Part shown: one piece after another, positions 4,756-36,022 of the stretch
How positions within the stretch are numbered: position 1 is the stretch's first letter
Layout: every line of letters starts with the position of its first letter
Source: Teichococcus deserti
GTDB lineage: Bacteria > Pseudomonadota > Alphaproteobacteria > Acetobacterales > Acetobacteraceae
Length of the DNA stretch: 36,022 nt
Direction: 5' to 3'
Assembly: GCF_001982615.1 (NCBI RefSeq)
Contig: NZ_MLCO01000011.1
Span: 1 to 36,022 of the forward strand
Translations under genes and position numbers: made by a program
The notes under the pieces: generated by a model
Database searches by the model: none
Seen by the model: only the letters and a program-made list of their open reading frames with translations
What the model was told of the DNA's origin: nothing

Positions 4756-5676
4756 GTGGCTGGACCCTTGCCGGCCCCCGGCGTCCCGGGCTCCGTCGCC
4801 GAGACCGAGCGGCTGCTGGCGGCCGGCGGCTATGTCGCCGACCGGGCGCTGGCCACCACCGTCTTCCTGGCGCTGAGCATGGGCCGGCCGCTCTTCCTGG
4901 AAGGCGAGCCCGGCACCGGCAAGACCGAGATCGCCAAGGTGCTGGCGGGCGGGCTCGGCCGGCGCCTGGTGCGGCTGCAATGCTATGACGGGCTCGACCT
5001 CTCGGCCGCCGCCTATGAGTGGAACCATGCCCGCCAGCTGATGGCCATCCGCCTGGCGGAAGCGGGCGGGGACGCGACCAGCGAAGCCGGCATCTATGAC
5101 CGCCGCTTCCTGCAGGAGCGGCCGTTGCTGGCGGCGCTGTCCGGCCCGCCGGCGGTGCTGCTGATCGACGAGCTCGACCGCGCCGACGAGCCTTTCGAAG
5201 CCTTCCTCCTGGAGATCCTGGCCGATTTCCAGCTGTCGATCCCGGAGCTCGGCACGGTGCGCGCGGAAACCCCGCCGATCGTCGTGCTGACCAGCAACCG
5301 CACGCGGGAGGTGCATGACGCCATCCGCCGGCGCTGCCTCTACCAATGGGTCGACTATCCCGACGCGGCGCGGGAACGCGCCATCCTGGCGCAGCGCATG
5401 CCCGGCCTGCCATCGGCGCTCTCGGCCCAGGTGGTGGATTTCGTCCAGCAGGTCCGCGGCGGCGACTTCTTCAAGTTCCCGGGCGTCGCCGAGACGCTGG
5501 ACTGGGCCGCCGCCCTGTCCGCGCTGGACGCCACCGAGCTGGAGCCGGTGCTGGTCGACGAGACGCTGGGCGCCCTGCTGAAATACCAGGACGACATCGC
5601 CAAGCTGCGCGGCGCCGAGGCCGCCCGCCTGGTGGAAGCGGTGAAGCAGGCGCCCGCCGCCGCCCTGCCCTTCTGA
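4756..5676 (+). CDS. coxD: MoxR/CoxD-type AAA+ ATPase
   Basis: This 306-residue MoxR-family ATPase starts at a GTG placed 3 bp after the coxG stop. Walker A is GEPGTGKT (50-57), Walker B VLLIDELDRAD (about 134-144), sensor 1 is in VVLTSNRTRE, and an arginine-finger-like IRRRC follows. In the cox system CoxD is a chaperone-like ATPase needed to assemble the CuSMoO2 active site of CO dehydrogenase. Pairing with a VWA protein is the usual MoxR-VWA arrangement. Its stop TGA overlaps the ATG of coxE (ATGA at 5674-5678), indicating translational coupling. Confidence 0.92.
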   Translation: MAGPLPAPGVPGSVAETERLLAAGGYVADRALATTVFLALSMGRPLFLEGEPGTGKTEIAKVLAGGLGRRLVRLQCYDGLDLSAAAYEWNHARQLMAIRLAEAGGDATSEAGIYDRRFLQERPLLAALSGPPAVLLIDELDRADEPFEAFLLEILADFQLSIPELGTVRAETPPIVVLTSNRTREVHDAIRRRCLYQWVDYPDAARERAILAQRMPGLPSALSAQVVDFVQQVRGGDFFKFPGVAETLDWAAALSALDATELEPVLVDETLGALLKYQDDIAKLRGAEAARLVEAVKQAPAAALPF

Positions 5677-6860
5677 TGACAGAAGGGGGCGGCCGGCTCG
5701 CCGCCAACCTGCTGGGCTTCGGCCGGCTGCTGCGCCGCGCCGGGGTGCCGGTGGGCCCGGCCGAGCTGCTGGCGGGCGCCGAGGCGCTGACCCGCATCGA
5801 GCTCGGCGACCGCGCCCAGGTGCAGGCCGCGCTGCGCGCCACCCTGGTCCACCGCGCCGAGTTCTTTTTCCTGTTTGACCATGCCTTCGGGCTGTGGTGG
5901 CGGGCGCCGTCGAACCCGGACCTGGCGGGCGACGAGGAGGACGGGTCCGACAGCAAGCCGGGCGCCGGGGCGCGACGGCTGGCGGAAGCCTTGGGCGGCA
6001 TGGCGCCGCCACCTCCTCCACCGCCGGAGGCCGAGAAGCGCGTGGATGCCAGCCTGAGCGTCAGCGCCGGCGAAGCCCTGAAAAAAATGGATTTCGAGGC
6101 GATGGACGCGGCGCAGCTGGCCGCCGCCCGCCAGGAGATCCGCCGCCTCGCCCTGCCGCTGGATGCCCGCCCGACCCGCCGCTTCCGCCCTGACCCGGCG
6201 GGCCACCGCGCCGACCTGCGCGCCACGCTGCGCGCCAGCCTGCGCCAGGGGGGCGAGATCACCGCGCTCCGCCACGCCGAGCGGGTGGAGCGGCCGCCGC
6301 CGCTGGTCGCCCTCTGCGACATTTCCGGCAGCATGAGCCGCTATGCCCAGGTGCTGCTGACCTTCCTGCATGCGGTGGCCAATGACCGCGAGCGGGTGAC
6401 CACCTTCCTCTTCGGGACGCGGCTCACCAATATCACCCGGCAGCTGCGCCACCGCGATGCCGAGGTCGCCTTCCAGATGGTCGGCCAGATCGTCCCCGAC
6501 TGGTCGGGCGGCACCCGGATCGGCGCGGCGCTGGACCGGTTCAACCATGAATGGGGCCGCCGCGTGCTGGGCCAGGGGGCGGTGGTGCTGCTGATCACCG
6601 ACGGGCTGGAGCGCGGCGACGCCAGTGATCTGGCGCGGCTGGCGTCGGCCACCGACCGGCTGCGCCATTCCTGCCGCCGGCTGATCTGGCTGAACCCGCT
6701 GCTGCGCTATGCCGGGTTCCAGCCACGGCCGCAGGGGGTGCGGACCATGCTGCCCCTGGTGCATGAGCACCGGCCGGTCCACAACATCGACAGCCTGCGC
6801 GCGCTGGTGGCCAGCCTCTCCGCCGCCCCGCCGCGCCCTTCCAGGGGATCGGGTGCATGA
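5676..6860 (+). CDS. coxE: VWA-domain protein, CoxE family
   Basis: This 394-residue partner of the MoxR-type ATPase has a C-terminal von Willebrand A domain. The MIDAS motif DISGS starts near residue 215, and LLITDG is near 305-310. The N-terminal half (LLGFGRLLRRAGVPVGPAE) matches the CoxE/VWA_CoxE family, and a Pro-rich patch (PPPPPPPEAEK) lies near 110-120. The start overlaps the coxD stop, and its own stop overlaps the ATG of the next gene. CoxE acts with CoxD in maturing the Mo/Cu site of CO dehydrogenase-type enzymes; which enzyme it serves here is not shown. Confidence 0.9.
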   Translation: MTEGGGRLAANLLGFGRLLRRAGVPVGPAELLAGAEALTRIELGDRAQVQAALRATLVHRAEFFFLFDHAFGLWWRAPSNPDLAGDEEDGSDSKPGAGARRLAEALGGMAPPPPPPPEAEKRVDASLSVSAGEALKKMDFEAMDAAQLAAARQEIRRLALPLDARPTRRFRPDPAGHRADLRATLRASLRQGGEITALRHAERVERPPPLVALCDISGSMSRYAQVLLTFLHAVANDRERVTTFLFGTRLTNITRQLRHRDAEVAFQMVGQIVPDWSGGTRIGAALDRFNHEWGRRVLGQGAVVLLITDGLERGDASDLARLASATDRLRHSCRRLIWLNPLLRYAGFQPRPQGVRTMLPLVHEHRPVHNIDSLRALVASLSAAPPRPSRGSGA

Positions 6861-7189
6861 GCGACCAGGACGATATTCTTTCCATTGCCGCCGGCTGGAT
6901 GGCGGATGGGGAAACCGTTGCGCTGGCGACGGTGGTCGAGACCTGGGGGTCGTCGCCCCGCCCCGCCGGATCGCAGCTGGCGGTGACAGCGTCTGGAAAA
7001 CTCGCCGGCAGCGTCTCCGGCGGCTGCATCGAGGGGGCCGTCGCCGAGGTCGCGCAGAAGACCATGGCCACCGGCGCGCCGCAGCTGCTGGATTTCGGCA
7101 TCAGCGACGAGCGCGCCTGGGAGGTCGGCCTGGCCTGCGGCGGCAAGCTGAAGGTCTTTGTCGAGAAGCTGGAAGGGGCCCGGGCATGA
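6857..7189 (+). CDS. XdhC/CoxI family protein, N-terminal domain only
   Basis: This 110-residue protein carries the XdhC_CoxI N-terminal domain: VALATVVETWGSSPRPAGSQ, SGGCIEG and LACGGKLKVFVE, with the conserved Cys residues of GGCIEG and ACGG. In single-chain XdhC this domain is followed by a Rossmann domain; here that domain is the next gene, so the protein is split in two. XdhC inserts the sulfurated molybdenum cofactor into xanthine dehydrogenase-type enzymes. It overlaps both neighbours by 4 bp. Split XdhC pairs are common next to cox genes. Confidence 0.9.
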   Translation: MSDQDDILSIAAGWMADGETVALATVVETWGSSPRPAGSQLAVTASGKLAGSVSGGCIEGAVAEVAQKTMATGAPQLLDFGISDERAWEVGLACGGKLKVFVEKLEGARA

Positions 7190-7902
7190 AGGCGGAAACC
7201 TTCTCCAGGCTGCACGCCGCCCGAGCCCAGGGTCGCCCGGTCGCGCTGCTGACCCGCCTGCCGGACGGCGCCCAGCTTCTGCACCCCGACGACACCCTGC
7301 CGCCTGCCCTGGCCGGGGCCGCCGCCGCCGCGCTTGCCGCCGATGCCGCGCGGACCCTGTCGGTCGACGGGCAGGACTGGTTCATCCAGCCGCACAACCC
7401 GCCGCTGCGGCTGATCGTGGTCGGCGCCGTGCATGTCGCCCAGGCGCTGGTGCCGATGGCCGCCGGCCTCGGCTATGCGATGACCGTGGTAGACCCCCGC
7501 CGCGCCTTCGCCACCGAAGAACGCTTCGGCGCCCGCGTCACCCTGGTCGACGACTGGCCGGACGAGGCCATGGCGCGCCTCGCCCCCGACCCCCGCACCG
7601 CCGTCGTCACCCTGACCCACGACCCCAAGCTGGACGACCCGGCCCTCGAGGTCGCGCTGAAGAGCCCCGCCTTCTATATCGGCGCGCTGGGCAGCCGGAA
7701 GACCCATGCCAAGCGCCTGGCGCGGCTGGCCGAGGCCGGGCTGACCGGGGCCGACTGCGCCCGCATCGCCGCCCCGGTGGGCCTGGCCATCGGCGCCGTC
7801 ACCGCCCCCGAGATCGCGCTGTCGATCATGGCCGAGGTCGTCGCCGCCCGCCGCGGCGCCGCGCTCGCCAGGCGCAGCGCGCCTGAACTGGAAAAGACAT
7901 GA
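7186..7902 (+). CDS. XdhC family protein, C-terminal Rossmann domain
   Basis: This 238-residue protein starts at an ATG overlapping the stop of the N-terminal XdhC gene. The Rossmann segment is LIVVGAVHVAQAL (about 76-88), followed by VTVVDPRRAFATEERF, VVTLTHDPKLD and YIGALGSRKTHAKRLARL. These are standard XdhC_C features; the GAVHVAQ variant of the glycine motif occurs in this branch of the family. The first 65 residues are less conserved. With the upstream protein it should form a complete molybdenum-cofactor-handling factor. Its stop overlaps the start of the MoeA/MobA-like fusion gene. Confidence 0.9.
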   Translation: MKAETFSRLHAARAQGRPVALLTRLPDGAQLLHPDDTLPPALAGAAAAALAADAARTLSVDGQDWFIQPHNPPLRLIVVGAVHVAQALVPMAAGLGYAMTVVDPRRAFATEERFGARVTLVDDWPDEAMARLAPDPRTAVVTLTHDPKLDDPALEVALKSPAFYIGALGSRKTHAKRLARLAEAGLTGADCARIAAPVGLAIGAVTAPEIALSIMAEVVAARRGAALARRSAPELEKT

Positions 7903-9545
7903 TCTTCGGCCCCACCCGGCTGGACGACGCCCAGGGTGCGGTGCTGGCGCATACCCAGCGCCTGGCCGGCCGCGTGCTGAAGAAGGGCACGGTGCTGGAC
8001 GCCGAGGCCATCGCCGCCCTGCGCGAGGCCGGCAAGCGCGAGGTCATCGCCGCCCGGCTGGAGCCCGGCGACGTTCCCGAGAACGAGGCCGCCCACCGGT
8101 TGGGCGAGGCGCTGCTGGCGCCCCTCCTGGCCCGCTCCCGCGCCGCCACCGGCCGGGTGAATATCCTGGCGGATTCCGCCGGGCTGCTGGTCGTCGATGC
8201 GGCGCTGGTCGACCGCCTGAACGCCATCGACGAAAGCGTCACCCTGGCGACGCTGCCGAACCACACGCCCGTGACCGCGCGCGAGATGCTGGCCACGGTG
8301 AAAGTCATCCCCTTCGCCGTGCCCGGCCTGGTGCTGCAGGTGGCCGAGGCGGTGCTGCGCGGCGGCACGGCGATGCAGGTGCATCCCTTCCGTCCGCTGA
8401 AGGTCGGGCTGGTGCTGACCGAGCTGCCGGGCCTCAAGGAAAGCATCATGGAGGGGGCCATCGAGGCCACCACCGAGCGGGTCCTGGGCCTTACCGGCAG
8501 CATGCTGCCGCCCGAGCGCTGCCGCCATGACGAGGCCGCCATCGCCGAGGCCCTGGCCCGGCTGCAGAAAGCCGGCGCCGAGCTGCTGCTGATCGCCGGC
8601 GCCTCGGCCGTCGTCGACCGCCGCGATGCCGGGCCGGCCGCCATCATCCGCGCCGGCGGGCGGATCGTCCATTTCGGCATGCCGGTCGATCCCGGCAACC
8701 TGATCTGCCTGGGCCGGATCGGCGAGACCCCGGCGCTGGTCCTGCCCGGCTGCGCCCGCAGCCCGAAGCTGAACGGCTTCGACTGGGTTCTGCAGCGCTT
8801 GTTCGCGGGCCTGCCCGTCGGCAGGAGCGAGGTCGCCGGCATGGGCGTCGGCGGGCTTTTGAAGGAGATCGAGCTCCGCCCGCTGCCGCGCGAGGCCGCG
8901 CCGCGCAATGCCCCTGCCCCCGGCAAGGCGCCGCGCCGGCCGCGCCAGGTGGCGGCGCTGGTGCTCGCCGCCGGCCGCTCCCGCCGCATGGCGCCGCTGA
9001 ACAAGCTGCTGGTGGAAGACCGCGCGGGCCGCCCCATGGTCGCCCGCGTCGTCGCCAATGTCCTCGACAGCCGCGCCCGCCCGGTCGTCGTCGTCACCGG
9101 CCATGAGCGCGCCCGGGTGGAAGAGGCGCTGCAGGGCAAGGGCGTGATCTTCGCCGAGGCGGAGGACTATGCCGAGGGCCTCTCCGCCTCGCTGAAGGCC
9201 GGGCTCGCCGCGCTGCCGCCGGAGGCCGAGGGCTTCATCGTCTGCCTGGGCGACATGCCGCTGGTGACGGGCGCGATGCTCGACCGGATGCTGGCCGCCT
9301 TCGACCCCGAGGAAGGCCGCGCCATCGTCATGCCGACCTTCCGCGGCAAGCAGGGCAACCCGATGCTCTGGTCCCGCGAGTTCATCCCCGAGATGCTCGA
9401 GCTGACCGGCGATGTCGGCGCCCGCCACCTGGCCGGCCGGCATGCCGAGCGGGTGGTCGAGGTGGAGATGGGCGACGACGCCGTGCTGCGCGACTTCGAC
9501 ACGCCGGAAGCGCTGCAGACCGCGCCGGATTTCGCTGGCCGATGA
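7899..9545 (+). CDS. Molybdopterin-binding / MobA-like NTP transferase fusion protein
   Basis: This 548-residue two-domain protein has a MoeA/CinA-like molybdopterin-binding region (about 1-330; e.g. TERVLGLTGSMLPPERC, LLIAGASAVVDRRD, PGNLICLGRI). A MobA/MocA-type nucleotidyltransferase follows (about 350-545). The nucleotide-binding loop is LAAGRSRRMAPLNKLL, followed by VVVTGHER, the CLGDMPLV motif and FRGKQGNPMLW. Such fusions are molybdenum cofactor cytidylyl- or guanylyltransferases that prepare the cofactor for xanthine-oxidase-family enzymes; CTP is likely because the neighbours are XdhC/Cox proteins. A short basic linker (GKAPRRPRQ, about 339-347) joins the domains. It overlaps xdhC and folK by 4 bp each. 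Confidence 0.9.
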   Translation: MIFGPTRLDDAQGAVLAHTQRLAGRVLKKGTVLDAEAIAALREAGKREVIAARLEPGDVPENEAAHRLGEALLAPLLARSRAATGRVNILADSAGLLVVDAALVDRLNAIDESVTLATLPNHTPVTAREMLATVKVIPFAVPGLVLQVAEAVLRGGTAMQVHPFRPLKVGLVLTELPGLKESIMEGAIEATTERVLGLTGSMLPPERCRHDEAAIAEALARLQKAGAELLLIAGASAVVDRRDAGPAAIIRAGGRIVHFGMPVDPGNLICLGRIGETPALVLPGCARSPKLNGFDWVLQRLFAGLPVGRSEVAGMGVGGLLKEIELRPLPREAAPRNAPAPGKAPRRPRQVAALVLAAGRSRRMAPLNKLLVEDRAGRPMVARVVANVLDSRARPVVVVTGHERARVEEALQGKGVIFAEAEDYAEGLSASLKAGLAALPPEAEGFIVCLGDMPLVTGAMLDRMLAAFDPEEGRAIVMPTFRGKQGNPMLWSREFIPEMLELTGDVGARHLAGRHAERVVEVEMGDDAVLRDFDTPEALQTAPDFAGR

Positions 9546-10033
9546 TCCTGGTCGCCCTCGGCGCCAACCTGCCCGGCGAGGACGGCCGGGCGCCGCGCGC
9601 CAGCTGCGAGGCCGCGGTCCAGGCCATCGCCGCCATTCCCGGCCTGCGGCTCGAGGCCGTCTCCCGCTGGTGGCAGACCGCGCCGGAGCCGCCCATGCCC
9701 GGCGCGCCCTGGTACGTCAACGGCGTGGTCCGCTGCGAAGGATCGCTGTCGCCGGAAGCGCTGCTCGCCGCCCTGCAGGCGATCGAGCAGGCCGCCGGCC
9801 GCCAGCGCCCCTTCCCCAACGCGCCGCGGACGCTCGACCTCGACATCATCGCCATGGGCGATCTGGTCCGCGAGCATCCCGACCCGATCCTGCCGCATCC
9901 GCGCGCCCATCTGCGCCGCTTCGTGCTGCAGCCGCTGATGGAGATCGCCCCCGGCTGGGTGCATCCCGCCCTGGGCCGGAGCGTGCAAGACCTGCTGGGG
10001 TCGCTGCCCGAAGCGGCCATGCTGCCGCTCTGA
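9542..10033 (+). CDS. folK: 2-amino-4-hydroxy-6-hydroxymethyldihydropteridine diphosphokinase
   Basis: This 163-residue HPPK transfers pyrophosphate from ATP to 6-hydroxymethyl-7,8-dihydropterin in folate synthesis. The N-terminus [10 protein letters not shown], the substrate-binding SRWWQTAP and the signature [11 protein letters not shown] (about 94-104), followed by [16 protein letters not shown], are all present. The length matches the family. It starts 4 bp inside the preceding fusion gene, so it ends the cofactor operon; folate genes folB and folP are not in the window. Joining a pterin-pathway gene to a molybdopterin module may only reflect translational coupling. Confidence 0.95.
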
Positions 10034-10071
10034 GCCGGATGGCCCCGGATCTCCCCTGGCCACCAGCGTGC

Positions 10072-10099
10072 TTGCCTTTCGCGGGTGCGGTGGCTATCT
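10072..10099 (+). promoter_or_regulatory. Possible sigma-70-type promoter of rpoZ
   Basis: TTGCCT (10072-10077) and CTATCT (10094-10099) are separated by 16 bp in the 103-bp gap between folK and rpoZ, and would start transcription about 30 nt before the rpoZ ATG. The hexamers are partial matches only. Confidence 0.35.
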
Positions 10100-10136
10100 G
10101 ACGGGTTCCGTCGGTATTGAAGTTGGAGGCCGCCCC

Positions 10137-10535
10137 ATGGCCCGCGTTACGGTCGAAGACTGCATCCTGAAGATTCCGAACCGCTTCGAGCTGGTTCTGA
10201 TCGCCGCCCAGCGCGCCCGCAACATCAGCCGCGGCGAAGAGCTGACGGTCGACCGCGACAACGACAAGAACCCGGTCGTCGCCCTGCGTGAGATCGCCGA
10301 CGAGACCGTCTCGCTGGCCGAGCTGGAGCAGGACCTGATCAAGTCGCTGCTGCGCGCGCCGGAGCCGGAGCCGGTCGAGGAAGAGGTCATCGACCTGATC
10401 GCCACCGACGAGAACATCTTCGGCGTGATGGACGTCAACGACGAGCCGCTGCCGGATTCCGCCGGCCTCGAGGACCTTTCGCCCGACGACATCGAGGCGG
10501 CCATCGCCGCCGAGCTCGCCGGCGGCCGCCGCTGA
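10137..10535 (+). CDS. rpoZ: DNA-directed RNA polymerase omega subunit
   Basis: This 132-residue omega subunit stabilises beta' and forms part of the ppGpp-binding site 1 in proteobacterial RNA polymerase. [26 protein letters not shown] and [14 protein letters not shown] are the conserved core (1-60). The acidic tail after residue 80 is typical of alphaproteobacterial omega. The ATG at 10137 follows ttggagg (10123-10129). It directly precedes rsh, the enzyme that makes the ligand omega helps to sense; rpoZ-spoT linkage is widespread in proteobacteria. Confidence 0.96.
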
Positions 10536-10548
10536 GCCGGGGGCGCGC

Positions 10549-12852
10549 TTGACATCCGGCGCCGGGATCGATTCTACCCCGGCGCCTGGCGCGCCTGAAG
10601 GGCTGGCCGGCACCCCGGCCACGCCGACCGCTTCCGCGGCGCCCCCGCCGCCGGTCGCCATCCCGATCGAGACCCCGGGCACCGAGCTCGCCCGCCGCGT
10701 CGCCGCCTATGACCCGCGCGCCGATGTCGCCCTGATCGAGGCGGCCTACAACCTCGCCGCCACCGCCCATGCCTCCCAGAGCCGGGAGAACGGCGACCCC
10801 TACATCACCCATCCGCTCGCCGTCGCCGGCATCCTGGCCGGCTACCGGCTCGACACCGGCAGCATCGCCACCGCCCTGCTGCACGACGTGGTGGAGGATA
10901 CCAGCTTCGGCCTGGCCGAGCTGGAGAAGCGCTTCGGCACCGACATTGCCCGGCTGGTCGACGGCGTCACCAAGCTGACCCGGCTGGAGCTGCAATCCGA
11001 GCGCACCAAGCAGGCGGAGAATTTCCGCAAGCTGGTCCTGGCCATGAGCGAGGACATCCGTGTCCTGCTGGTCAAGCTTGCCGACCGGCTGCACAACATG
11101 CGGACGCTGAGCTTCAAGCCGAAGCCGGAAAGCCGCGCCCGCGTCGCCCGCGAGACCATGGAGATCTATGCGCCGCTGGCCCAGCGCATCGGCATGGACG
11201 CGGTCAAGACCGAGCTGCAGTCCCTCTCCTTCCGCGAGCTGCAGCCGGACGCCTACCAGACCATCACCGCGCGCCTGGCCTTCCTGCGCGGCCAGGGTGC
11301 CGACCTGATCGACGAGATCGCCGCCGACCTGAAGGCCAAGCTCGCCGCCGCCGGCGTGCCGATCCTGGAAGTGAACGGGCGCGAGAAATCGCCCTATTCC
11401 ATCTGGCTGAAGATGCACGAGAAGAAGGTCGAGTTCGAGCAGCTCTCGGACATCATGGCCTTCCGCGTCGTCACCAACGACCGCGCCAACTGCTATGCCG
11501 CGCTCGGCGCCATCCACTCCGCCTATCGCGTGGTCCCGGGGCGGTTCAAGGACTACATCTCGACGCCCAAGCCCAACGGCTACCAGTCGCTGCACACCGG
11601 CGTGACGGTGCCCGAGCGCCGCAACGCCAAGATCGAGGTGCAGATCCGGACGCCCGACATGCACGAGGTCGCCGAATACGGCGTCGCCGCGCATTGGATG
11701 TACAAGCAGGGCGCCGCCGACGAGACGCCCAAGCGCCGCCGCTACCCCTGGGTCCGCGAGCTGCTGGAAATCCTCGAGACCGCCGCCGAGCCCGGCGACT
11801 TCCTCGAGCACACCAAGCTGGCGCTGCACCAGGACCAGGTCTTCTGCTTCACGCCGAAAGGCGACCTGATCGCCCTGCCGCGCGGCGCGACCCCCATCGA
11901 TTTCGCCTACCAGGTGCACAGCCAGGTCGGCGACGCCTGCGTCGGCGCCAAGATCAACGGCCGCATCGTGCCGCTGCGCCACCAGCTGGAGAATGGCGAC
12001 CAGGTCGAGGTCATCACCGCCCGCGGCGGCACCCCCAACCCGGCCTGGGAACGCTTCGTCGTCACCGGCAAGGCCAAGGCGCGCATCAAGCGCTTCGCCA
12101 TGGCCCGCCAGCGCAGCGAGTTCCAGGAGCAGGGCCGCAGCGCCATCGCCCGCGCCTTCCGCCAGGAAGGCCTCGACTTCGCCGAGAAGCTGGTCGAACC
12201 GGCGCTGAAGGCGCTGAAGCAGCCCGGCTTCGAGGAGCTCTGCGTCGCCGTCGGCAACGGCAATATCGGCGCCCGCGAGGTGCTGCACGCCGCCATCCCC
12301 GAGCTGCGCGGCCCGCCGCGGCCGATGGACGTGCTGCCGCTGGCCCGCGCCCGCGGCAAGCCCGGCGCCACCGTCGTCCGCACCGAGCGCCGGCGCGAGG
12401 CCTCCTCCGGCATCACCGGGCTGGTCGCCGGCATGGCGGTGCAGTTCGCCGGCTGCTGCCATCCCGTGCCGGGCGACCGCATCGTCGGCATCGTCACCAC
12501 CGGCAAGGGCGTCACCGTCCACAAGAACGACTGCCACAACCTGGAAGCCCTGGCGGCGACGCCGGAACGCTTCATCGACATCGACTGGGACTACGAGGCG
12601 GGCTCGGCCGGGGCGCATCTGGGGCGCCTCGACGTGCTGACCAGCAACGAGGATTCCGCCATCGCCGCCATGACGGTGGCCATCGCCAAGCAGAACGGCA
12701 AGCTGCACAACCTGCGCTTTGCCCATCGCGCCGCCGATTACGCGGAAGTGGTGGTCGACCTCGAGGTTTCCGACCTGCGCCACCTGTCCAACGTCATCGC
12801 AGCGCTGCGCGCCTGCCCCGGCATCATCCAGGTCGAGCGCAGCAAGGGGTGA
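10549..12852 (+). CDS. rsh: Bifunctional (p)ppGpp synthetase/hydrolase, RelA/SpoT homologue
   Basis: This 767-residue stringent-response enzyme contains an HD hydrolase domain (THPLAVAGIL, catalytic His112-Asp113 in LLHDVVEDTS). The synthetase domain has GREKSPYSIWLKM, CYAALGAIHS and RFKDYI...NGYQSLHT. A TGS domain (FTPKGDLIALPRGATPIDFAY) and a C-terminal ACT domain (from about residue 680) follow. The RFKD motif is the RxKD form found in bifunctional Rsh/SpoT rather than the ExDD of RelA. The only start that fits is TTG at 10549, 13 bp after rpoZ; it gives a Pro/Ala-rich 45-residue extension with no upstream Shine-Dalgarno of note, so the true N-terminus is uncertain. The hydrolase side chains are intact, so both activities are expected. 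Confidence 0.95.
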   Translation: MTSGAGIDSTPAPGAPEGLAGTPATPTASAAPPPPVAIPIETPGTELARRVAAYDPRADVALIEAAYNLAATAHASQSRENGDPYITHPLAVAGILAGYRLDTGSIATALLHDVVEDTSFGLAELEKRFGTDIARLVDGVTKLTRLELQSERTKQAENFRKLVLAMSEDIRVLLVKLADRLHNMRTLSFKPKPESRARVARETMEIYAPLAQRIGMDAVKTELQSLSFRELQPDAYQTITARLAFLRGQGADLIDEIAADLKAKLAAAGVPILEVNGREKSPYSIWLKMHEKKVEFEQLSDIMAFRVVTNDRANCYAALGAIHSAYRVVPGRFKDYISTPKPNGYQSLHTGVTVPERRNAKIEVQIRTPDMHEVAEYGVAAHWMYKQGAADETPKRRRYPWVRELLEILETAAEPGDFLEHTKLALHQDQVFCFTPKGDLIALPRGATPIDFAYQVHSQVGDACVGAKINGRIVPLRHQLENGDQVEVITARGGTPNPAWERFVVTGKAKARIKRFAMARQRSEFQEQGRSAIARAFRQEGLDFAEKLVEPALKALKQPGFEELCVAVGNGNIGAREVLHAAIPELRGPPRPMDVLPLARARGKPGATVVRTERRREASSGITGLVAGMAVQFAGCCHPVPGDRIVGIVTTGKGVTVHKNDCHNLEALAATPERFIDIDWDYEAGSAGAHLGRLDVLTSNEDSAIAAMTVAIAKQNGKLHNLRFAHRAADYAEVVVDLEVSDLRHLSNVIAALRACPGIIQVERSKG

Positions 12853-30373: not shown

Positions 30374-31126
30374 TCAGGCCATGTAGGAGAAGCCGGTATT
30401 CCCGGAGATGATCAGGTAGCGGTTGATCAGCTTCTCGCGCCCTTCGGCGGTGGAGAACTCCGTCAGGTCGATGCGCTTCTCGACCTGGCGGGCCTGGGAT
30501 TCGATCGACTGGTAGGCGATCTCCTCCGGCAGCCCGGCCAGCGTCAGGGCGACGCGGCGCAGGATCTTGTCGCCGAGGACGTTGTAGACGCCGGGCGTCT
30601 TGTCCTCCATGCCGCGGATATGCAGCGCGTCGGACACTTCCGTGCTCTGGTCTGCGACCTCGGAAACGCGCTTGTACTCAATGTAGTTCGCCTTGATCTC
30701 GGCGAAGGTCTTCGGGTCCTTCAGCTTCGCCAGGCCGGACTTGGCGAAGTCGAGGTCCTGCGCCGCCGTCTTCCAGGCGCCGTTGGTCAGCTGGGAGGCG
30801 AGGTTGCCCTCGGCCTTGAGGTCGGAGGTCAGCGCCCGGGTGGCCAGCGCGACATTGTCCTCCTGCCCGGCCAGGCCATAGGCCTGCAGCAGCACCTTGC
30901 GGGCGGTCGGGTCCTTCAGCAGCGCCTCGGGCGACTCCGCCGTGTCGATCGCCTTCTGCAAGCGGTCGAGGTCGCGCTTGATCGAGGGATCCTTGGACAG
31001 GCGCGCGGTGTCCTTGTCCTCGTTCTTCAGTGTCTTGTTGTAGAGGCCGATGCGATCGGTGCCCGTCATCGCGCTGCTGTCCGAGCCGTAGCCGAACAGC
31101 GTGCCGAGATAGGGATTGATCGTCAT
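30374..31126 (-). CDS. DUF1217 family protein in the flagellar cluster
   Basis: This 250-residue, mostly alpha-helical, charged protein starts at ATG 31126 after GAGGAGG. Recognised by YNKTLKNEDKDTARLSKDPSIKRDL, GAWKTAAQDLDFAKSGLAKLKDP and RQVEKRIDLTEFSTAEGREKLINRYLI. DUF1217 proteins occur in alphaproteobacterial flagellar regions but lack an established activity. It lies 45 bp after flbT on the same strand, so it is probably part of the flagellin operon. It has no signal peptide and no cysteine; a flagellar-assembly or export-related role is an inference from context only. Confidence 0.8.
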   Translation of the reverse strand: MTINPYLGTLFGYGSDSSAMTGTDRIGLYNKTLKNEDKDTARLSKDPSIKRDLDRLQKAIDTAESPEALLKDPTARKVLLQAYGLAGQEDNVALATRALTSDLKAEGNLASQLTNGAWKTAAQDLDFAKSGLAKLKDPKTFAEIKANYIEYKRVSEVADQSTEVSDALHIRGMEDKTPGVYNVLGDKILRRVALTLAGLPEEIAYQSIESQARQVEKRIDLTEFSTAEGREKLINRYLIISGNTGFSYMA

Positions 31127-31171
31127 GGCGGCCTCCTCAAACATCCGCCGGGCGGGGGGAGCCCGGTCGGT

Positions 31172-31627
31172 TCAGCTTGGCGCGGCGGCGGAGACCGGCG
31201 CCCCGGCGCTGGCGTTCAGCATCGCGTCGTCATGCGGGAAGAGCACGCGGACGCGGCGCATCGCTTCCCAGCAGTCGCCGATCTCGAGATCGGCGATGGC
31301 CAGCGCCAGCACGCTGCGGGCGGTGGCCGAGGTGGTCGCGGCCGCGTATTCGTCGGCCAGGCCACGGGCCATGGCGACGAACTGGTCGCGCTCGTCCTCC
31401 TCGGCGATATAGGCGGCCTGGATGGCGAAGTAGACACGGCGGGCCGGGGTGCGCGCATCCTCGGGCGACATGATCTGCTTGCCGAAGAGGAAGCGGGCAC
31501 GGTTCGACAGCATGACGCTGGTGCGCGTCTTGAACTGCAGCGCCGCGCCATTGACCAGCATGCGGTCGCCGGCGCGCAGGTCGAGGACCAGGCGGCCGGC
31601 GCCGCGCGGGGAGCGGGTCTCGCTCAT
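31172..31627 (-). CDS. flbT: Flagellar biosynthesis repressor FlbT
   Basis: This 151-residue FlbT is a post-transcriptional regulator; in Caulobacter it binds the fljK flagellin leader and promotes its decay until the hook is complete. LRAGDRMLVNGAALQF, LFGKQIMSPEDARTPARRVYFAIQAAYI and LEIGDCWEAMRRVRVLFPHD are family landmarks. Its ATG overlaps the flaF stop by 4 bp. It lies downstream of the two flagellin genes whose leaders contain a matched hairpin, a plausible target. Confidence 0.93.
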   Translation of the reverse strand: MSETRSPRGAGRLVLDLRAGDRMLVNGAALQFKTRTSVMLSNRARFLFGKQIMSPEDARTPARRVYFAIQAAYIAEEDERDQFVAMARGLADEYAAATTSATARSVLALAIADLEIGDCWEAMRRVRVLFPHDDAMLNASAGAPVSAAAPS

Positions 31628-32007
31628 GCGGCGGCGCCCGTCTCCGCGACCGGCGCGCGGCCCAGCAGGCCGGCGGCGAAGCTGTCGCAGATATCGGCCA
31701 GGAAGCCGAGATCGGCGTCGTCCTTGTCGGCCTCGCGCATGGCGGCGCGGCAGACGGAGACGATCTGGCCACGCAGCGGCAGCGGCAGCTCGCAGGATTC
31801 GTGCAGCGTCAGCACGCGGACCGTGCTGAACAGGCGCGTCGCGTCGCTGCGCGCGCGGATCTTCTCGATGTCGGAGCCCTCGGTGGCCACGCGCAGGCGG
31901 CCGGAGACCAGGGCATAGACCTCGGCCTCCTGCTCGCGGAGCGACCGGGTGGCCTTCACGGCGCCATAGGCACGCAAGGCCTGGGCGTGGAAGTTGGGTG
32001 CGGACAC
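31624..32007 (-). CDS. flaF: Flagellar biosynthesis regulator FlaF
   Basis: This 127-residue FlaF is needed for flagellin synthesis or export and acts opposite to FlbT in Caulobacter. It begins MSAPNFHAQALRAYG at a GTG (32007) with gagagg upstream; ATRLFSTVRVLTLHESCELP is partly conserved. It is between the first flagellin gene (148 bp upstream) and flbT (4-bp overlap). Identity rests on the start motif, length and strict flaF-flbT pairing. Confidence 0.88.
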   Translation of the reverse strand: MSAPNFHAQALRAYGAVKATRSLREQEAEVYALVSGRLRVATEGSDIEKIRARSDATRLFSTVRVLTLHESCELPLPLRGQIVSVCRAAMREADKDDADLGFLADICDSFAAGLLGRAPVAETGAAA

Positions 32008-32081
32008 GATACCAGCCTCTCGTTTTGACGGCGGGGGGCCGCGAGGCCCCGTGTTCGGTACGGATTCGGTTGTTCAGGGCG

Positions 32082-32108
32082 GTCCGGACGGCGGGGGGTC
32101 GTCCGGAC
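32082..32108 (-). terminator. Hairpin between flagellin and flaF
   Basis: gtccggac occurs at 32082-32089 and 32101-32108; each is its own reverse complement, so they pair as a perfect 8-bp stem. A second stem (ggggcc/ggcccc, 32035-32050) lies closer to flaF. No T-run follows, so partial read-through into flaF-flbT is likely. Confidence 0.5.
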
Positions 32109-32155
32109 CTGTCAGGCCTGCCGCGGCGCGGCGGCCTCAAGCGGTGTCGCGTCGC

Positions 32156-33091
32156 TCAGCGGAAGAGCGAGAGCAGGACCTCGGGCGCCGAGTTGGCGGT
32201 GGACAGCGAGGTCGTCGCCAGCTGCTGCTGCGTCTGCAGCGCGGTCAGGCGGGCCGATTCCTTGGCCAGGTCGGCGTCGACCAGCGAGCCCAGGCCCTCT
32301 TCCATCGCGTCGATGCGGGCGCTGTTGTAGGTCAGCTGGCTCGAGATGAACTTGCTGTCGTTGCCGAGCGCGTTCGAGGTGGTGTTCACGTCGGAGCTGA
32401 GCTGCGTGAAGGTCTTCAGCGCCACGCCGCCGACGGTGACCGAGGTCACGGCCGCGCCGGTGTTGTCGACGCCCTGCAGCAGCTGCTTCGCCTCGTCGGC
32501 CGACATCGTGGTGATGCCGGTGATGTCGGTGGCGATGTCGTCGGTGAAGCTCAGATTGTCGGCCGAGGTGGCGGTCGAGTTGACCGTGTAGCTCTGGCCC
32601 TTCTCGTTGCGGGTCACTTCCATCGAGCCGCCCTCGAAGGCGGCGCCGGTCAGCGGGTCGGTCGCGGTGCTGCCCAGCAGGCGGGTGCCGTTGTAGCTGG
32701 CATCCTGCAGGGTGGTGTTCATCCGCGTGACGAGCGACTTGAACTGCTCGGTGTACTGGTTGCGCGTCTCTTCATCGAGGTTCGCGTCGGACAGCTTGGT
32801 CAGCACGGTGCTGACATCGTTCACCAGGGTGGTGGAGACGGTGTCCACCGCCTTCAGCGTGCTGGTGAGCAGGCCGTTCACGCCGCCGAGCTGGTCGTTG
32901 GCGGAGTTCAGGCCGGAGACATCGGCGCGGACCTTCTGGGCCACCGCATAGGCGGCGCCATCGTCCTTGGCGTCCGACACCTTGTAGCCGGTGGAGACCT
33001 TCTTCTGCGTCGTGTCGAGCTGCTCGTTGATCTTGTTCAACGACTGCAGGGCAACCTTGGCGCCAGAATTCGTAATGACCGAGTTGGCCAT
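32156..33091 (-). CDS. Flagellin (downstream tandem copy)
   Basis: This 311-residue filament protein has conserved N-terminal D0/D1 helices (MANSVITNSGAKVALQSLNKINEQLDTTQ) and C-terminal D1/D0 helices (MEEGLGSLVDADLAKESARLTALQTQQQLA, ending LLSLFR). The central variable domain is short. It is 87% identical (272 of 311, no gaps) to the upstream flagellin; differences cluster in the middle. No cysteine. The ATG at 33091 follows aggaa; the frame stays open 24 nt upstream. The leader has the two-hairpin structure described separately. Filament assembly is outside the cell via the flagellar type III system. Confidence 0.96.
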   Translation of the reverse strand: MANSVITNSGAKVALQSLNKINEQLDTTQKKVSTGYKVSDAKDDGAAYAVAQKVRADVSGLNSANDQLGGVNGLLTSTLKAVDTVSTTLVNDVSTVLTKLSDANLDEETRNQYTEQFKSLVTRMNTTLQDASYNGTRLLGSTATDPLTGAAFEGGSMEVTRNEKGQSYTVNSTATSADNLSFTDDIATDITGITTMSADEAKQLLQGVDNTGAAVTSVTVGGVALKTFTQLSSDVNTTSNALGNDSKFISSQLTYNSARIDAMEEGLGSLVDADLAKESARLTALQTQQQLATTSLSTANSAPEVLLSLFR

Positions 33092-33114
33092 GGCTTCAAT
33101 TCCTGTTCCCGACA

Positions 33115-33174
33115 CCGCTTGCTTTTAAGCGGCGCGATCGAAACACCCCGTCTTTTCCAGGGCGCGTCCGATCG
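33115..33174 (-). promoter_or_regulatory. Structured leader of the downstream flagellin mRNA
   Basis: In mRNA sense the 5' hairpin (33174-33135) pairs cgatcg with cgatcg, then ccc with ggg, leaving the loop ggaaaagac. The next hairpin (33132-33115) pairs ccgctt with aagcgg. The start codon is 44 nt from the end of the first hairpin. The same plan with other stem bases occurs before the other flagellin gene, which supports an RNA structure. FlbT is the candidate reader. Confidence 0.65.
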
Positions 33175-33197
33175 GACATGGAGGGTCACCGCGCGGC

Positions 33198-33279
33198 TTA
33201 TCCGCCGTACCATCCGTCTCCACCCGGTCCTTGGGCGGCGAAGGCAAATTCGGCCGAATTTATGAACGGGGTGTTTACC
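33198..33279 (-). promoter_or_regulatory. Conserved upstream block of the downstream flagellin gene
   Basis: This 82-base block aligns without gaps to 34594-34675 before the other flagellin gene. The gene-proximal part, containing ggatggtacggcggat, is identical in 40 of 47 bases. TNAA-N7-TTTACC is kept at the far end. It should contain the promoter, but neither a clear sigma-28 nor a correctly spaced sigma-54 site is visible. Confidence 0.55.
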
Positions 33280-33465
33280 ATCCTTCCCAAATCGAACCGG
33301 CCCCAAAAAAAAAGTGAGGAAGGCGGTCAGGCGCCTGAAATCGCAGCGGCCAGGCGGCACGCGATCCGACTTGGCCGGGGCCGGGAAGATGGGATTTCTC
33401 GCCGGTTTCGGCGGCAATTCGTTAACAGTTTTTGCGCGCGAGCCGGCCGCGACCGAAGACAGAAC

Positions 33466-33495
33466 GGGCCGGGCAGCGCCACCGCCGCCCGGCCC
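33466..33495 (-). terminator. Terminator hairpin after the upstream flagellin gene
   Basis: gggccgggc (33466-33474) and gcccggccc (33487-33495) form a perfect 9-bp stem around a 12-nt loop; on the minus strand it is followed by the moderately T-rich gttctgtctt. Confidence 0.65.
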
Positions 33496-33555
33496 GGTCC
33501 TGTGGCGGGGACGCCCCGCGCGCCTGGCGGCGGCGCGGCGTCCCGGCCCGGTCGA

Positions 33556-34491
33556 TCAGCGGAACAGCGAGAGCAGGACCTGCGGCGCCGAGTTGGCAGT
33601 CGACAGCGCGGTCGTCGCCAGCTGCTGCTGGGTCTGCAGCGCGGTCAGGCGGGCCGATTCCTTGGCCAGGTCGGCGTCCACCAGCGAGCCCAGGCCTTCC
33701 TCCATCGCGTCGATGCGCGAGCTGTTGTAGGTCATCTGGCTGCCGACGAACTTGCTGTCGTTGCCCAGCTGGTTCTGCGCCGAGTTCACGTCGGAGGTGA
33801 GCGAGGTGAAGGTCTTCAGCGCCACGCCGCCGACGGTGACCGAGGTCACGGCCGCGCCGGTGTTGTCGACGCCCTGCAGCAGCTGCTTGGCATCATCCGC
33901 GCTGACCGTGGTGATGCCCGAGATATCGGTGGCGATATCGTCGGTGAAGGACATCTGGTCGGCGGTGGTGCCGCTCGAGTTGACGGTGTAGCTCTGGCCC
34001 TTCTCGTTGCGGGTCACTTCCATCGAGCCGCCGGTGTAGGCGGCGCCGGTCAGGTCGTTGGTCGCGGTCGAGGAGAGCAGGCGGGTGCCGTTGTAGTTCG
34101 CGTCCTGCAGCGTGGTGTTCATCTGCGTGACGAGCGACTTGAACTGCTCGGTGTACTGGGTGCGGGTCTCGTCATCGAGGTTCGCGTCGGAGAGCTTGGT
34201 CAGCACGGTCGAGACGTCGGTCGACAGCTTGCTGGAGACGGTGTCGATCGCCTTCAGCGTGCTGGTCAGCAAGCCGTTCACGCCGCCGAGCTGGTCGTTG
34301 GCGGCATTCAGGCCGGTGACGTCGGCGCGCACCTTCTGGGCGACGGCATAGGCGGCGCCGTCATCCTTGGCGTCGGCCACCTTGAAGCCGGTCGAGACCT
34401 TCTTCTGGGTGGTGTCGAGCTGGTTGTTGATCTTGTTCAGCGACTGCAGCGCGACCTTGGCGCCGGAGTTCGTGATGACCGAGTTGGCCAT
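33556..34491 (-). CDS. Flagellin (upstream tandem copy)
   Basis: This 311-residue flagellin is the promoter-proximal copy. D0/D1 N- and C-terminal helices are intact and nearly identical to the second copy (MEEGLGSLVDADLAKESAR, APQVLLSLFR). It differs from it at 39 positions without gaps. The ATG at 34491 has aggaa 9 nt upstream; the longer frame to 34584 covers the leader hairpin. Long stretches of identity at both ends (e.g. QLLQGVDNTGAAVTSVTVGG) could reflect recent duplication or gene conversion. Each copy has its own terminator and leader, so they are independent transcription units. Confidence 0.96.
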   Translation of the reverse strand: MANSVITNSGAKVALQSLNKINNQLDTTQKKVSTGFKVADAKDDGAAYAVAQKVRADVTGLNAANDQLGGVNGLLTSTLKAIDTVSSKLSTDVSTVLTKLSDANLDDETRTQYTEQFKSLVTQMNTTLQDANYNGTRLLSSTATNDLTGAAYTGGSMEVTRNEKGQSYTVNSSGTTADQMSFTDDIATDISGITTVSADDAKQLLQGVDNTGAAVTSVTVGGVALKTFTSLTSDVNSAQNQLGNDSKFVGSQMTYNSSRIDAMEEGLGSLVDADLAKESARLTALQTQQQLATTALSTANSAPQVLLSLFR

Positions 34492-34513
34492 AGCGGTAGT
34501 TCCTGGGAACCAT

Positions 34514-34570
34514 CGCCGCCCGATCAAGGGCGACGCGATCAGACCCCTGTCTTTTCCGGGGCGCTGATCG
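34514..34570 (-). promoter_or_regulatory. Structured leader of the upstream flagellin mRNA
   Basis: In mRNA sense cgatcag pairs with ctgatcg and cccc with gggg around the loop ggaaaagaca (34570-34536). It is immediately followed by a second hairpin of cgtcgccc with gggcggcg (34535-34514, one G-T pair). The end of the first hairpin is 45 nt before the ATG, as in the other flagellin gene, and the loop bases are the same while the stems differ. Confidence 0.7.
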
Positions 34571-34593
34571 GGAAGGAAGGTCACTGAAGCGGT

Positions 34594-34675
34594 TCATCCG
34601 CCGTACCATCCATCTCCGCCCGTTCATGGGGCGGCATCGGGAATTTGGCCGCCAATTGTTAACCGGTTATTTACC
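34594..34675 (-). promoter_or_regulatory. Conserved upstream block of the upstream flagellin gene
   Basis: Gap-free counterpart of 33198-33279. It contains ggatggtacggcggat near the leader end and TTAA-N7-TTTA (34659-34673) at the far end, a near match to the TTAA-N7-TTAA site of the cell-cycle regulator CtrA. Promoter class is not determined. Confidence 0.5.
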
Positions 34676-35060
34676 GAGACGATTTTTCGGCGGGCTCGGC
34701 CGGATCGAGAATTATCTTCCTGAAATCCCGGCGAAAATATTTCCCGCAGCGTGTCTCATTCGCGAGAAGCTCCAGCTGGAGCTGGGCGGTGCAAGCCTGA
34801 TCCGAGCCATATCCGTTAACACTTTCCGAATGCCGCCGCCCGCCGAAACCCGGGCGATTCGTCCACCCTGCGCGCTCCACCGATCGCAGGCGCCAAACCC
34901 CGTATCAAGGACCCCGTGTTGAAGGGGCGCGGTCATAGACGACACCACATTAGAGAAGGACTCACAAAAGCGCTTTTCCCAGCCATTCCTGTTCGACGGG
35001 TTAACAGACTGGTCCGAACTCACCGTCATGGTGCCGCCACGAAAGCAACGGATTCGCGGC
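34676..35060. other. Divergent region between flagellin and cheA
   Basis: There is no supported gene in these 385 bp. Two perfect palindromes are present, agctccagctggagct (34768-34783) and aaaagcgctttt (34966-34977), and GTTAAC occurs at 34815-34820 and 35000-35005. The cheA promoter should lie here but no consensus is clear. Confidence 0.55.
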
Positions 35061-36022
35061 ATGGACGACCTCATTTCGGAATTCCTGGCGGAGACCAACG
35101 AGGCTCTCGCCGAATTGGACACCGCCCTGGTGGACCTCGAACGTGCCTCCGAGGATGCCGAGATTCTGGCGCGCATCTTCCGCATGGTCCATAGCGTCAA
35201 GGGCACCTGCGGCTTCCTCGGCCTGTCGCGGCTCGAGGCGGTGGCGCATGCCGCCGAATCCCTTCTCGGCCTCTATCGCGACGGCGACATCGCGGTCTCG
35301 CCCGCCGGCGTCACCGCGGTGCTGGCCGCCATCGACACCATCCGCATGATCATGGCGGGCCTGGCCGAGACCGGCGTCGAGCCCGCCGGCGATGACTCTG
35401 CCCTCGTCGCGCAGCTGAACGCCGCCTCGGAAGAGCAGCCCGCCGCCGCCGAGGTCGAGATCGAGGCCCCCGTGGTCGCCCCGGTTGCCGCCGTCGCCGA
35501 GCCCGAGCCCGCCGCGATCGCCGAGGCCCCGGCCGAGGTCGTCGCCGCGCCGGTGGCCGCCGCCGCCGCCGCCGCGGCCCCTGCCCCGGCCCCCGTCGCG
35601 GAGAAGCCGGCCGAGAAGGCGCCCGAGAAGGCGCCCGAGAAGCCCGCCGAGGAAAAAGCGGCTGCCCAGCACAATGATTCCTCGATGCCGGTGCAGGCGA
35701 TCCGCGTCTCGCTGCCGGTCCTTGACGAGCTGATGACGCTCGCCTCCGAGCTGGTGCTGGTGCGCAACCAGCTGCTGCAGGTCGCCCGCGGCCAGACCGA
35801 CACGCCTTTCGCAGCACCCCTGCAGCGGCTGTCGCGCATCACCTCCGACCTGCAGGAAGGGGTGATGAAGACCCGGATGCAGCCGGTCTCGGCCGCCTGG
35901 GCCAAGCTGCCCCGCCTGGTGCGCGACCTCGGCACCGAGCTCGGCAAGCGCATCGACCTGGTGCAGAGCGGCGGCGACACCGAGCTCGACCGCCAGGTGC
36001 TGGAGCTGATCAAGGACCCGCT
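35061..36022 (+). CDS. cheA: Chemotaxis histidine kinase CheA (partial, 3' end outside window)
   Basis: The first 320 codons of CheA are seen. The P1 HPt domain (1-120) has the phosphorylated His44 in RMVHSVKGTCGFLG. A low-complexity linker rich in Ala/Pro/Glu/Lys (about 121-210; repeats of EKAPEK) follows. The P3 dimerisation domain begins near 213 (AIRVSLPVLDELMTLASELVLVRNQLL), with LQEGVMKTRMQPV and the start of the kinase region after it. No P2 CheY-binding domain is seen between P1 and P3. The start ATG at 35061 agrees with family N-termini (MDDLISEFL); an in-frame ATG at 35028 would add 11 residues, and neither has a strong Shine-Dalgarno. Confidence 0.93.
   Translation, partial: MDDLISEFLAETNEALAELDTALVDLERASEDAEILARIFRMVHSVKGTCGFLGLSRLEAVAHAAESLLGLYRDGDIAVSPAGVTAVLAAIDTIRMIMAGLAETGVEPAGDDSALVAQLNAASEEQPAAAEVEIEAPVVAPVAAVAEPEPAAIAEAPAEVVAAPVAAAAAAAAPAPAPVAEKPAEKAPEKAPEKPAEEKAAAQHNDSSMPVQAIRVSLPVLDELMTLASELVLVRNQLLQVARGQTDTPFAAPLQRLSRITSDLQEGVMKTRMQPVSAAWAKLPRLVRDLGTELGKRIDLVQSGGDTELDRQVLELIKDP

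Follow-up and report, generated by a model that had tools for sequence, protein, structure and literature searches.

In Caulobacter crescentus, flagellin mRNA of the fljK type is reportedly under the control of the protein FlbT. Two reviews describe FlbT as a translational repressor acting on the flagellin 5' UTR, to which its binding is either stated or proposed, with repression lasting up to completion of the hook-basal body; they treat its mode of action on these leaders as unsettled (PMC3930126, PMC4347634). A later paper describes FlbT acting with the flagellin FljJ as a repressor of the five other flagellins, up to the point at which FljJ is secreted (PMC7591256), and FlbT is reported as a flagellin activator in Brucella (PMC4347634, PMC9812332, PMC8781033). 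The CsrA-FliW-flagellin system of Campylobacter and Bacillus offers a parallel, and FlaF-FlbT is proposed as an analogous system in PMC4894983; the likeness lies in a repressor of flagellin mRNA that is antagonised by a protein partner. The targets differ, however: CsrA recognises GGA, whereas the hairpins considered here have an AAAA or ARAA core, and FlbT has no detectable sequence kinship with CsrA. Among catalogued RNA families, RF01736 (flg-Rhizobiales) is described in PMC3765529 as a cis-acting flagellar element of Alphaproteobacteria that has three stem-loops.

The locus compared here with these systems lies within a window, by which we mean the whole stretch of DNA that was analysed, of 36,022 nucleotides. 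The organism is a Roseomonas/Pseudoroseomonas relative; near matches to its flagellin were found in Roseomonas sp. 18066 (96%), Roseomonas sp. GC11 (77%) and Pseudoroseomonas cervicalis ATCC 49957 (73%). The features of the locus are as follows.

34492..34586, minus strand: whole f1 leader element (89.9 bits with model R2, which was trained on it)
34536..34570, minus strand: f1 leader hairpin 1, loop region GGAAAAGACA (predicted by folding; outer stem covaries across 10 leaders)
34514..34535, minus strand: f1 leader hairpin 2, loop TTGATC (predicted by folding; covariation)
33556..34491, minus strand: flagellin f1, 311 aa (Pfam Flagellin_N and Flagellin_C over cut-off)
33465..33496, minus strand: terminator-like hairpin, 3' of f1 and 5' of the f2 leader (consensus scan only)
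33092..33191, minus strand: whole f2 leader element (89.8 bits with model R2, which was trained on it)
33135..33174, minus strand: f2 leader hairpin 1, loop region GGAAAAGAC (predicted by folding; outer stem covaries across 10 leaders)
33113..33134, minus strand: f2 leader hairpin 2, loop AAAAGC (predicted by folding; covariation)
32156..33091, minus strand: flagellin f2, 311 aa (Pfam Flagellin_N and Flagellin_C over cut-off)
31624..32007, minus strand: flaF, between f2 and flbT (Pfam FlaF, 28.5 bits, cut-off 23.6)
31172..31627, minus strand: flbT, candidate RNA-binding regulator (Pfam FlbT, E 2.9e-28)

A preliminary description had placed a two-hairpin leader on each flagellin mRNA, upstream of flbT, and the gene order bears this out, as flaF and flbT both follow the two flagellins on the same strand. 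The terminator-like hairpin after f1 suggests that f2 may be transcribed separately, as its own transcript; this hairpin is a consensus match from a scan that found two in the region against 1.4 expected.

Each leader is predicted to fold into two hairpins. The coordinates first reported for hairpin 1 (33135-33174 and 34536-34570) proved exact, on the minus strand, with GGAAAAGAC inside both hairpins (33150-33158 in f2, 34549-34557 in f1), and the second hairpin said to follow in each was found at 33113-33134 and 34514-34535. The distance from hairpin 1 to the ATG needs correction: given as 44-45 nt, it measures 43 (f2) and 44 (f1). The second-hairpin loops are unlike between the two genes (AAAAGC in f2, TTGATC in f1). 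In a folding comparison of the kind that the preliminary description had called for, the two-hairpin stretches beat dinucleotide shuffles, with z of -3.93 for f2 (0 of 200 shuffles equally good) and -2.73 for f1 (2 of 200); for the whole 150-base leaders, z was -2.27 (6/200) and -2.88 (1/200). The nine-mer GGAAAAGAC has three copies in the window, where 0.06 are expected, the third copy (7890-7898, plus strand) lying immediately 5' of the ATG of an NTP-transferase ORF and outside any hairpin loop. Upstream of hairpin 1, the genus leaders share a well-kept stretch, recognised by eye, that reads GGATGGTACGGCGGAT..CCGC and then GTGACC (34580-34611 and 33184-33215 in the window, on the minus strand). 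It is probably the promoter and RNA start; a sigma-70 scan gave no match, and no clear sigma-54 site was seen there by eye.

The structure was also compared within the genus. Six of the 17 genomes sampled carry this flagellin type, yielding ten leaders, all ten of which are predicted to fold into two hairpins. Across 15 stem pairs of the ten-leader alignment, 99.3% of cells are paired, in a set of related sequences from which the misaligned inner stem of hairpin 1 was excluded for the covariation count. Seven of these 15 pairs have changed on both sides (15 cells), with G-U intermediates included. The covariation score was 0.391 vs 0.238, and none of 500 shuffles matched the ten leaders in pairing, in both-sided changes or in this score; a fifth covariation measure, further pair types, was unremarkable (103 of 500 shuffles were as high). 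When partners were slid, pairing fell to 22.7-53.2%, a control biased toward structure, as the pairs were taken from the window's own folds. The proposal of selection on RNA structure is strongly supported by this covariation, G-U intermediates included.

The loop is kept in a narrower sense than first proposed. It is identical in f1 and f2, but relatives keep only an AAAA(G) core: hairpin 1 reads AAAAGAC or AAAAGGC in nine of the ten leaders, the letters before this core vary, the GG of the GGAAAAGAC loop varies among relatives, and the constant part is AAAAG(A/G)C. The full nine-mer is not what has been conserved. One P. cervicalis copy (L010_a) has lost the core from hairpin 1. Hairpin 2 has a similar AAAA loop in eight of the ten leaders, the loop being missing in f1 of the window and in f1 of its nearest relative (G011); each of the ten leaders retains at least one AAAA loop, and none is without both. 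A model of the whole element (R2), run against 58 genomes, scored ten flagellin leaders at 81.7 bits or more and everything else at 26.8 bits or less, the ten being its own training set. What the analysis shows directly is the structure, its covariation, its confinement to flagellin leaders of the searched genomes, and the contrast between two flagellin clades in Caulobacterales described next.

A smaller A-looped hairpin was recognised in Caulobacterales, which were reached with a flagellin query (Caulobacter-like genomes at 88% identity). The FljK-type leaders of these Caulobacter-like genomes contain short hairpins of the form C-ARAA(N)-G, often two in tandem. We defined a strict motif as a C-ARAA(N)-G hairpin loop with at least three further pairs. 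Divided by flagellin identity at 53.6%, a cut picked after the data had been seen, 38 of 41 leaders on one side and none of 20 on the other contain this motif. Because that division was post hoc, a protein tree of the 61 flagellins was built; rooted at its midpoint, it separates an FljK-type clade, with the motif in 38 of 42 leaders, from a second clade with the motif in none of 19 (branch support 100/99). The 19 flagellins of the second clade share 42-52% identity with the query, and their genes occupy downstream positions in the stretches that were fetched; PMC7591256 gives 49% identity between FljJ and the other flagellins. Judged from sequence, this clade would be FljJ-type, the co-repressor of FlbT. 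RNAalifold applied to the Caulobacterales alignment (A5) predicted no pairs, the tetraloop and pentaloop forms being out of register. A further hairpin, CTTCC-AGAAT-GGAGG, is present at about -20 in Caulobacterales leaders (e.g., L217, L219, L223-L225); its 3' arm contains the ribosome-binding stretch, and a protein that binds the loop could block translation directly.

A-looped hairpins extend beyond this order. A wider set of 74 leaders from FlbT-bearing genomes comprised 54 kept of 60 fetched, plus 20 from earlier loci; four fetched loci without a usable flagellin start (L135, L145, L146, L148) and two non-flagellin leaders (L154, L155) were excluded. The set includes three leaders from the window's own genus (L001, L028, L034) and L143, whose genome has a sole FlbT match under the cut-off (E 5.0e-4). 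An unguided count of loop 4-mers in short hairpins, with the expectation taken from dinucleotide shuffles, ranked AAAA first (23 leaders vs 7.0 expected) and AGAA second (16 vs 4.0). The comparison set from FlbT-less genomes held 23 leaders, drawn from 30 loci (L066-L095) after exclusion of three from FlbT-bearing genomes and four without a start, and includes two (L075, L082) whose last 90 bases are identical; AAAA loops occur in none of them, vs 1.26 expected. The strict motif is found in 18 of the 74 wider leaders, or in 13 of 68 once the Caulobacter-order L114, L115 and L140 and the genus second-locus L001, L028 and L034 are set aside; neither count is blind, since the motif was defined after the Caulobacterales had been inspected and the wider set had already been seen. 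It is found in none of the 23 FlbT-less leaders, although these flagellins come from other lineages and the contrast is therefore confounded by descent. Shuffles of the same leaders gave on average 0.29 leaders with the motif, and its density per kb falls from 16.2 in the 41 FljK-type leaders to 3.4 in the wider 74 and 0.08-0.09 in flanking DNA. Pairing around the loop is likewise in excess: the stem can be extended by at least three pairs at 46 of the 71 CARAANG sites, against 10.0 expected if 3' flanks were dealt among sites.

Some of these occurrences carry less weight. A CAGAAG stretch in the second-locus leader L001 meets the motif definition, as do the leaders of L028 and L034, but the hairpin appears in the minimum-energy fold of none of five second-locus leaders (L001, L028, L030, L032, L034), and the motif at this locus is therefore discounted as evidence. 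A model of the tandem canonical form (R1), trained on 32 of the 41 FljK-type leaders, matched 86 of 190 whole genomes at E<=1, which is near noise; the first hit (kin to training) and the sixth are flagellin leaders, and seven other hits that were inspected had no flagellin start within 220 bases. Among 76 loci, R1 gave 15 matches at E<=1, the best four being the flagellin leaders L114 (kin to training), L125, L097 and L103, and four of the 15 falling in loci of FlbT-less genomes.

The window hairpins do not share the strict form. None of the ten window-type genus leaders contains the C-ARAA(N)-G motif; they have A-looped tandem hairpins of other size instead, with longer stems and larger loops than the Caulobacter FljK type. 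Kinship with the canonical form is argued from the AAAA loops, the tandem layout, the location upstream of the start codon and the neighbouring flaF-flbT genes, and in our judgement the window hairpins would be a looser, derived form of that family. The Caulobacter FlbT-fljK system has the same setting, namely a flagellin 5' leader, flaF and flbT genes and tandem A-looped hairpins; in the window, the element lies in flagellin 5' leaders by gene position, FlbT and FlaF are encoded in the genome, and flaF and flbT adjoin the flagellins. RF01736 and the window element are alike as alphaproteobacterial flagellar cis RNAs with stem-loops, but RF01736 matched neither window 32000-36022 nor any of 20 other loci, and across 190 genomes it reached E<=0.001 in two and its cut-off in none. 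One sub-threshold match was inspected and lies at a flagellar rod-type gene (from an ORF reading), not a flagellin; RF01736 is a different element. Against Rfam 15, the window stretch gave three chance-level matches, none better than E 6.4, to families that have no connection with bacterial flagella, and the 20 other loci gave none at E<=0.5. That FlbT acts on flagellin leaders is known; no description of these hairpins was found in the open-licence papers searched, and a prior description is possible.

We consider it rather probable, with moderate confidence, that the hairpins are cis-regulatory RNA whose A-loops are most likely recognised by FlbT, and that flagellin mRNA is thereby held until export opens. 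Each flagellin mRNA would begin, or nearly begin, with the two tandem hairpins, as the Roseomonas form of a short A-looped family (canonically C-ARAA(N)-G on a short stem, often in tandem). The A-rich loops would be recognised by FlbT, either by itself or together with a flagellin co-repressor, and the flagellin mRNA would be kept untranslated or marked for decay; once the export channel opens, the flagellin partner would leave the cell and repression would end, a release step in which FlaF may help. We infer the recognition by FlbT, the repression step and the identity of the co-repressor here. The presence of the hairpins on the repressed clade, and their absence from the presumed co-repressor clade, fits the FlbT-FljJ scheme. 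The loop had been named the FlbT target at the outset; a link to FlbT is plausible, with circumstantial support from the restriction of canonical forms to the FljK clade and from the adjacent flaF-flbT genes, while the lack of conservation of GGAAAAGAC as such, the similar loop of hairpin 2 in eight of ten leaders and the motif's presence in only 18 of 74 wider leaders limit it. The recurrence of A-looped hairpins upstream of flagellin genes in several alphaproteobacterial lineages suggests a common signal, perhaps with FlbT as its reader, by which filament production is linked to assembly. More tentatively, and at somewhat less than even probability, tandem ARAA-loop hairpins may be RNA operators of flagellin mRNAs in much of the Alphaproteobacteria, read by FlbT and a flagellin co-repressor, present on the regulated flagellins and absent from the mRNA of the co-repressor itself; the window would then represent a lineage whose hairpins have grown larger but whose A-loops persist. 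A hairpin with a short loop core provides a concrete site for mutation, and the hairpin-free clade in the same genomes provides a natural control. Decay of the mRNA is an alternative to occlusion of the ribosome site: among the ten genus leaders, the ribosome site is predicted to pair at long range with a 5' UCC strongly in four, partially in three and not at all in three.

It is conceivable, though unlikely, that the hairpins instead stabilise the 5' end of an abundant mRNA in a general way, against 5'-end-dependent decay, with A loops present for fold stability and no dedicated reader. Stems that change while pairing persists would suit such a role, as would the position of the RNA start: a loose sigma-54-like pattern matches 29 of 42 FljK-type leaders at -84 to -94, from which FljK-type RNA in Caulobacterales would start close to the first hairpin; in the other clade the pattern matches five of 19, at -73 to -81. 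A mere stabiliser, however, would not need the restricted loop letters, with AAAA and AGAA leading the 4-mer count, and flagellins of the other clade lack the motif in the same stretches. Somewhat less probable again is that another RNA-binding factor, such as Hfq with a small RNA, ribosomal protein S1 or an RNase, reads the A-rich loops in place of FlbT. A-rich single strands are ligands of Hfq and S1, and FlbT is singled out by inference; yet the clade contrast agrees with the FlbT-FljJ specificity published in PMC7591256, and in a paper on Hfq-bound RNA of Caulobacter, a word search of the main text returned none of flagellin, fljK, fljM or flagell- (PMC11005374).

That the dyads are DNA operators or transcription attenuators is very improbable. 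They are palindromes near a probable promoter region, but conserved pairs go through G-U, which an operator dyad would not favour, and neither leader hairpin is followed by a T-run or appears in the terminator scan list. Least credible of all is a CsrA-like FlbT reading the GGA in the GGAAAAGAC loop as a CsrA-type site: the FlbT N-terminus resembles CsrA by eye and a modest-confidence model shows four short N-terminal strands there, but hhalign of FlbT against CsrA gave a probability of 1.2% (two CsrA sequences only), no CsrA stands among the best 50 of 557 PDB matches to the model, and GGA is missing from the hairpin 1 loops of L008_f1, L010_a and L021, with AGA in L008_f2 and L010_b.

A CsrA-like fold for FlbT is accordingly unsupported by profile or structure comparison. 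The model was built from four close sequences, with a pLDDT of 74 and a weak N-terminus, and a PDB sequence search with FlbT gave no match better than E 0.42. The top listed structural matches are helical, FliS being first; since that match reaches only E 0.44 and unrelated helical bundles rank beside it, a FliS-like helical half is not claimed. No FlbT relatives were found in viral contigs.

The 6.25 Mb genome encodes FlbT at three places, and no FljJ-type flagellin was identified in it. At G000:C572:5739-8527 (loci L001, L172) it has a second flagellin, in a 612 aa frame, together with a separate flbT, and the third flbT sits on C566. Within the window, a gene for a DUF1217 protein (Pfam) follows flbT at 30374-31144 (minus strand), and positions 5346-12852 (plus strand) hold genes for a CoxE-like VWA protein, XdhC, a MobA-like NTP transferase and RelA/SpoT.
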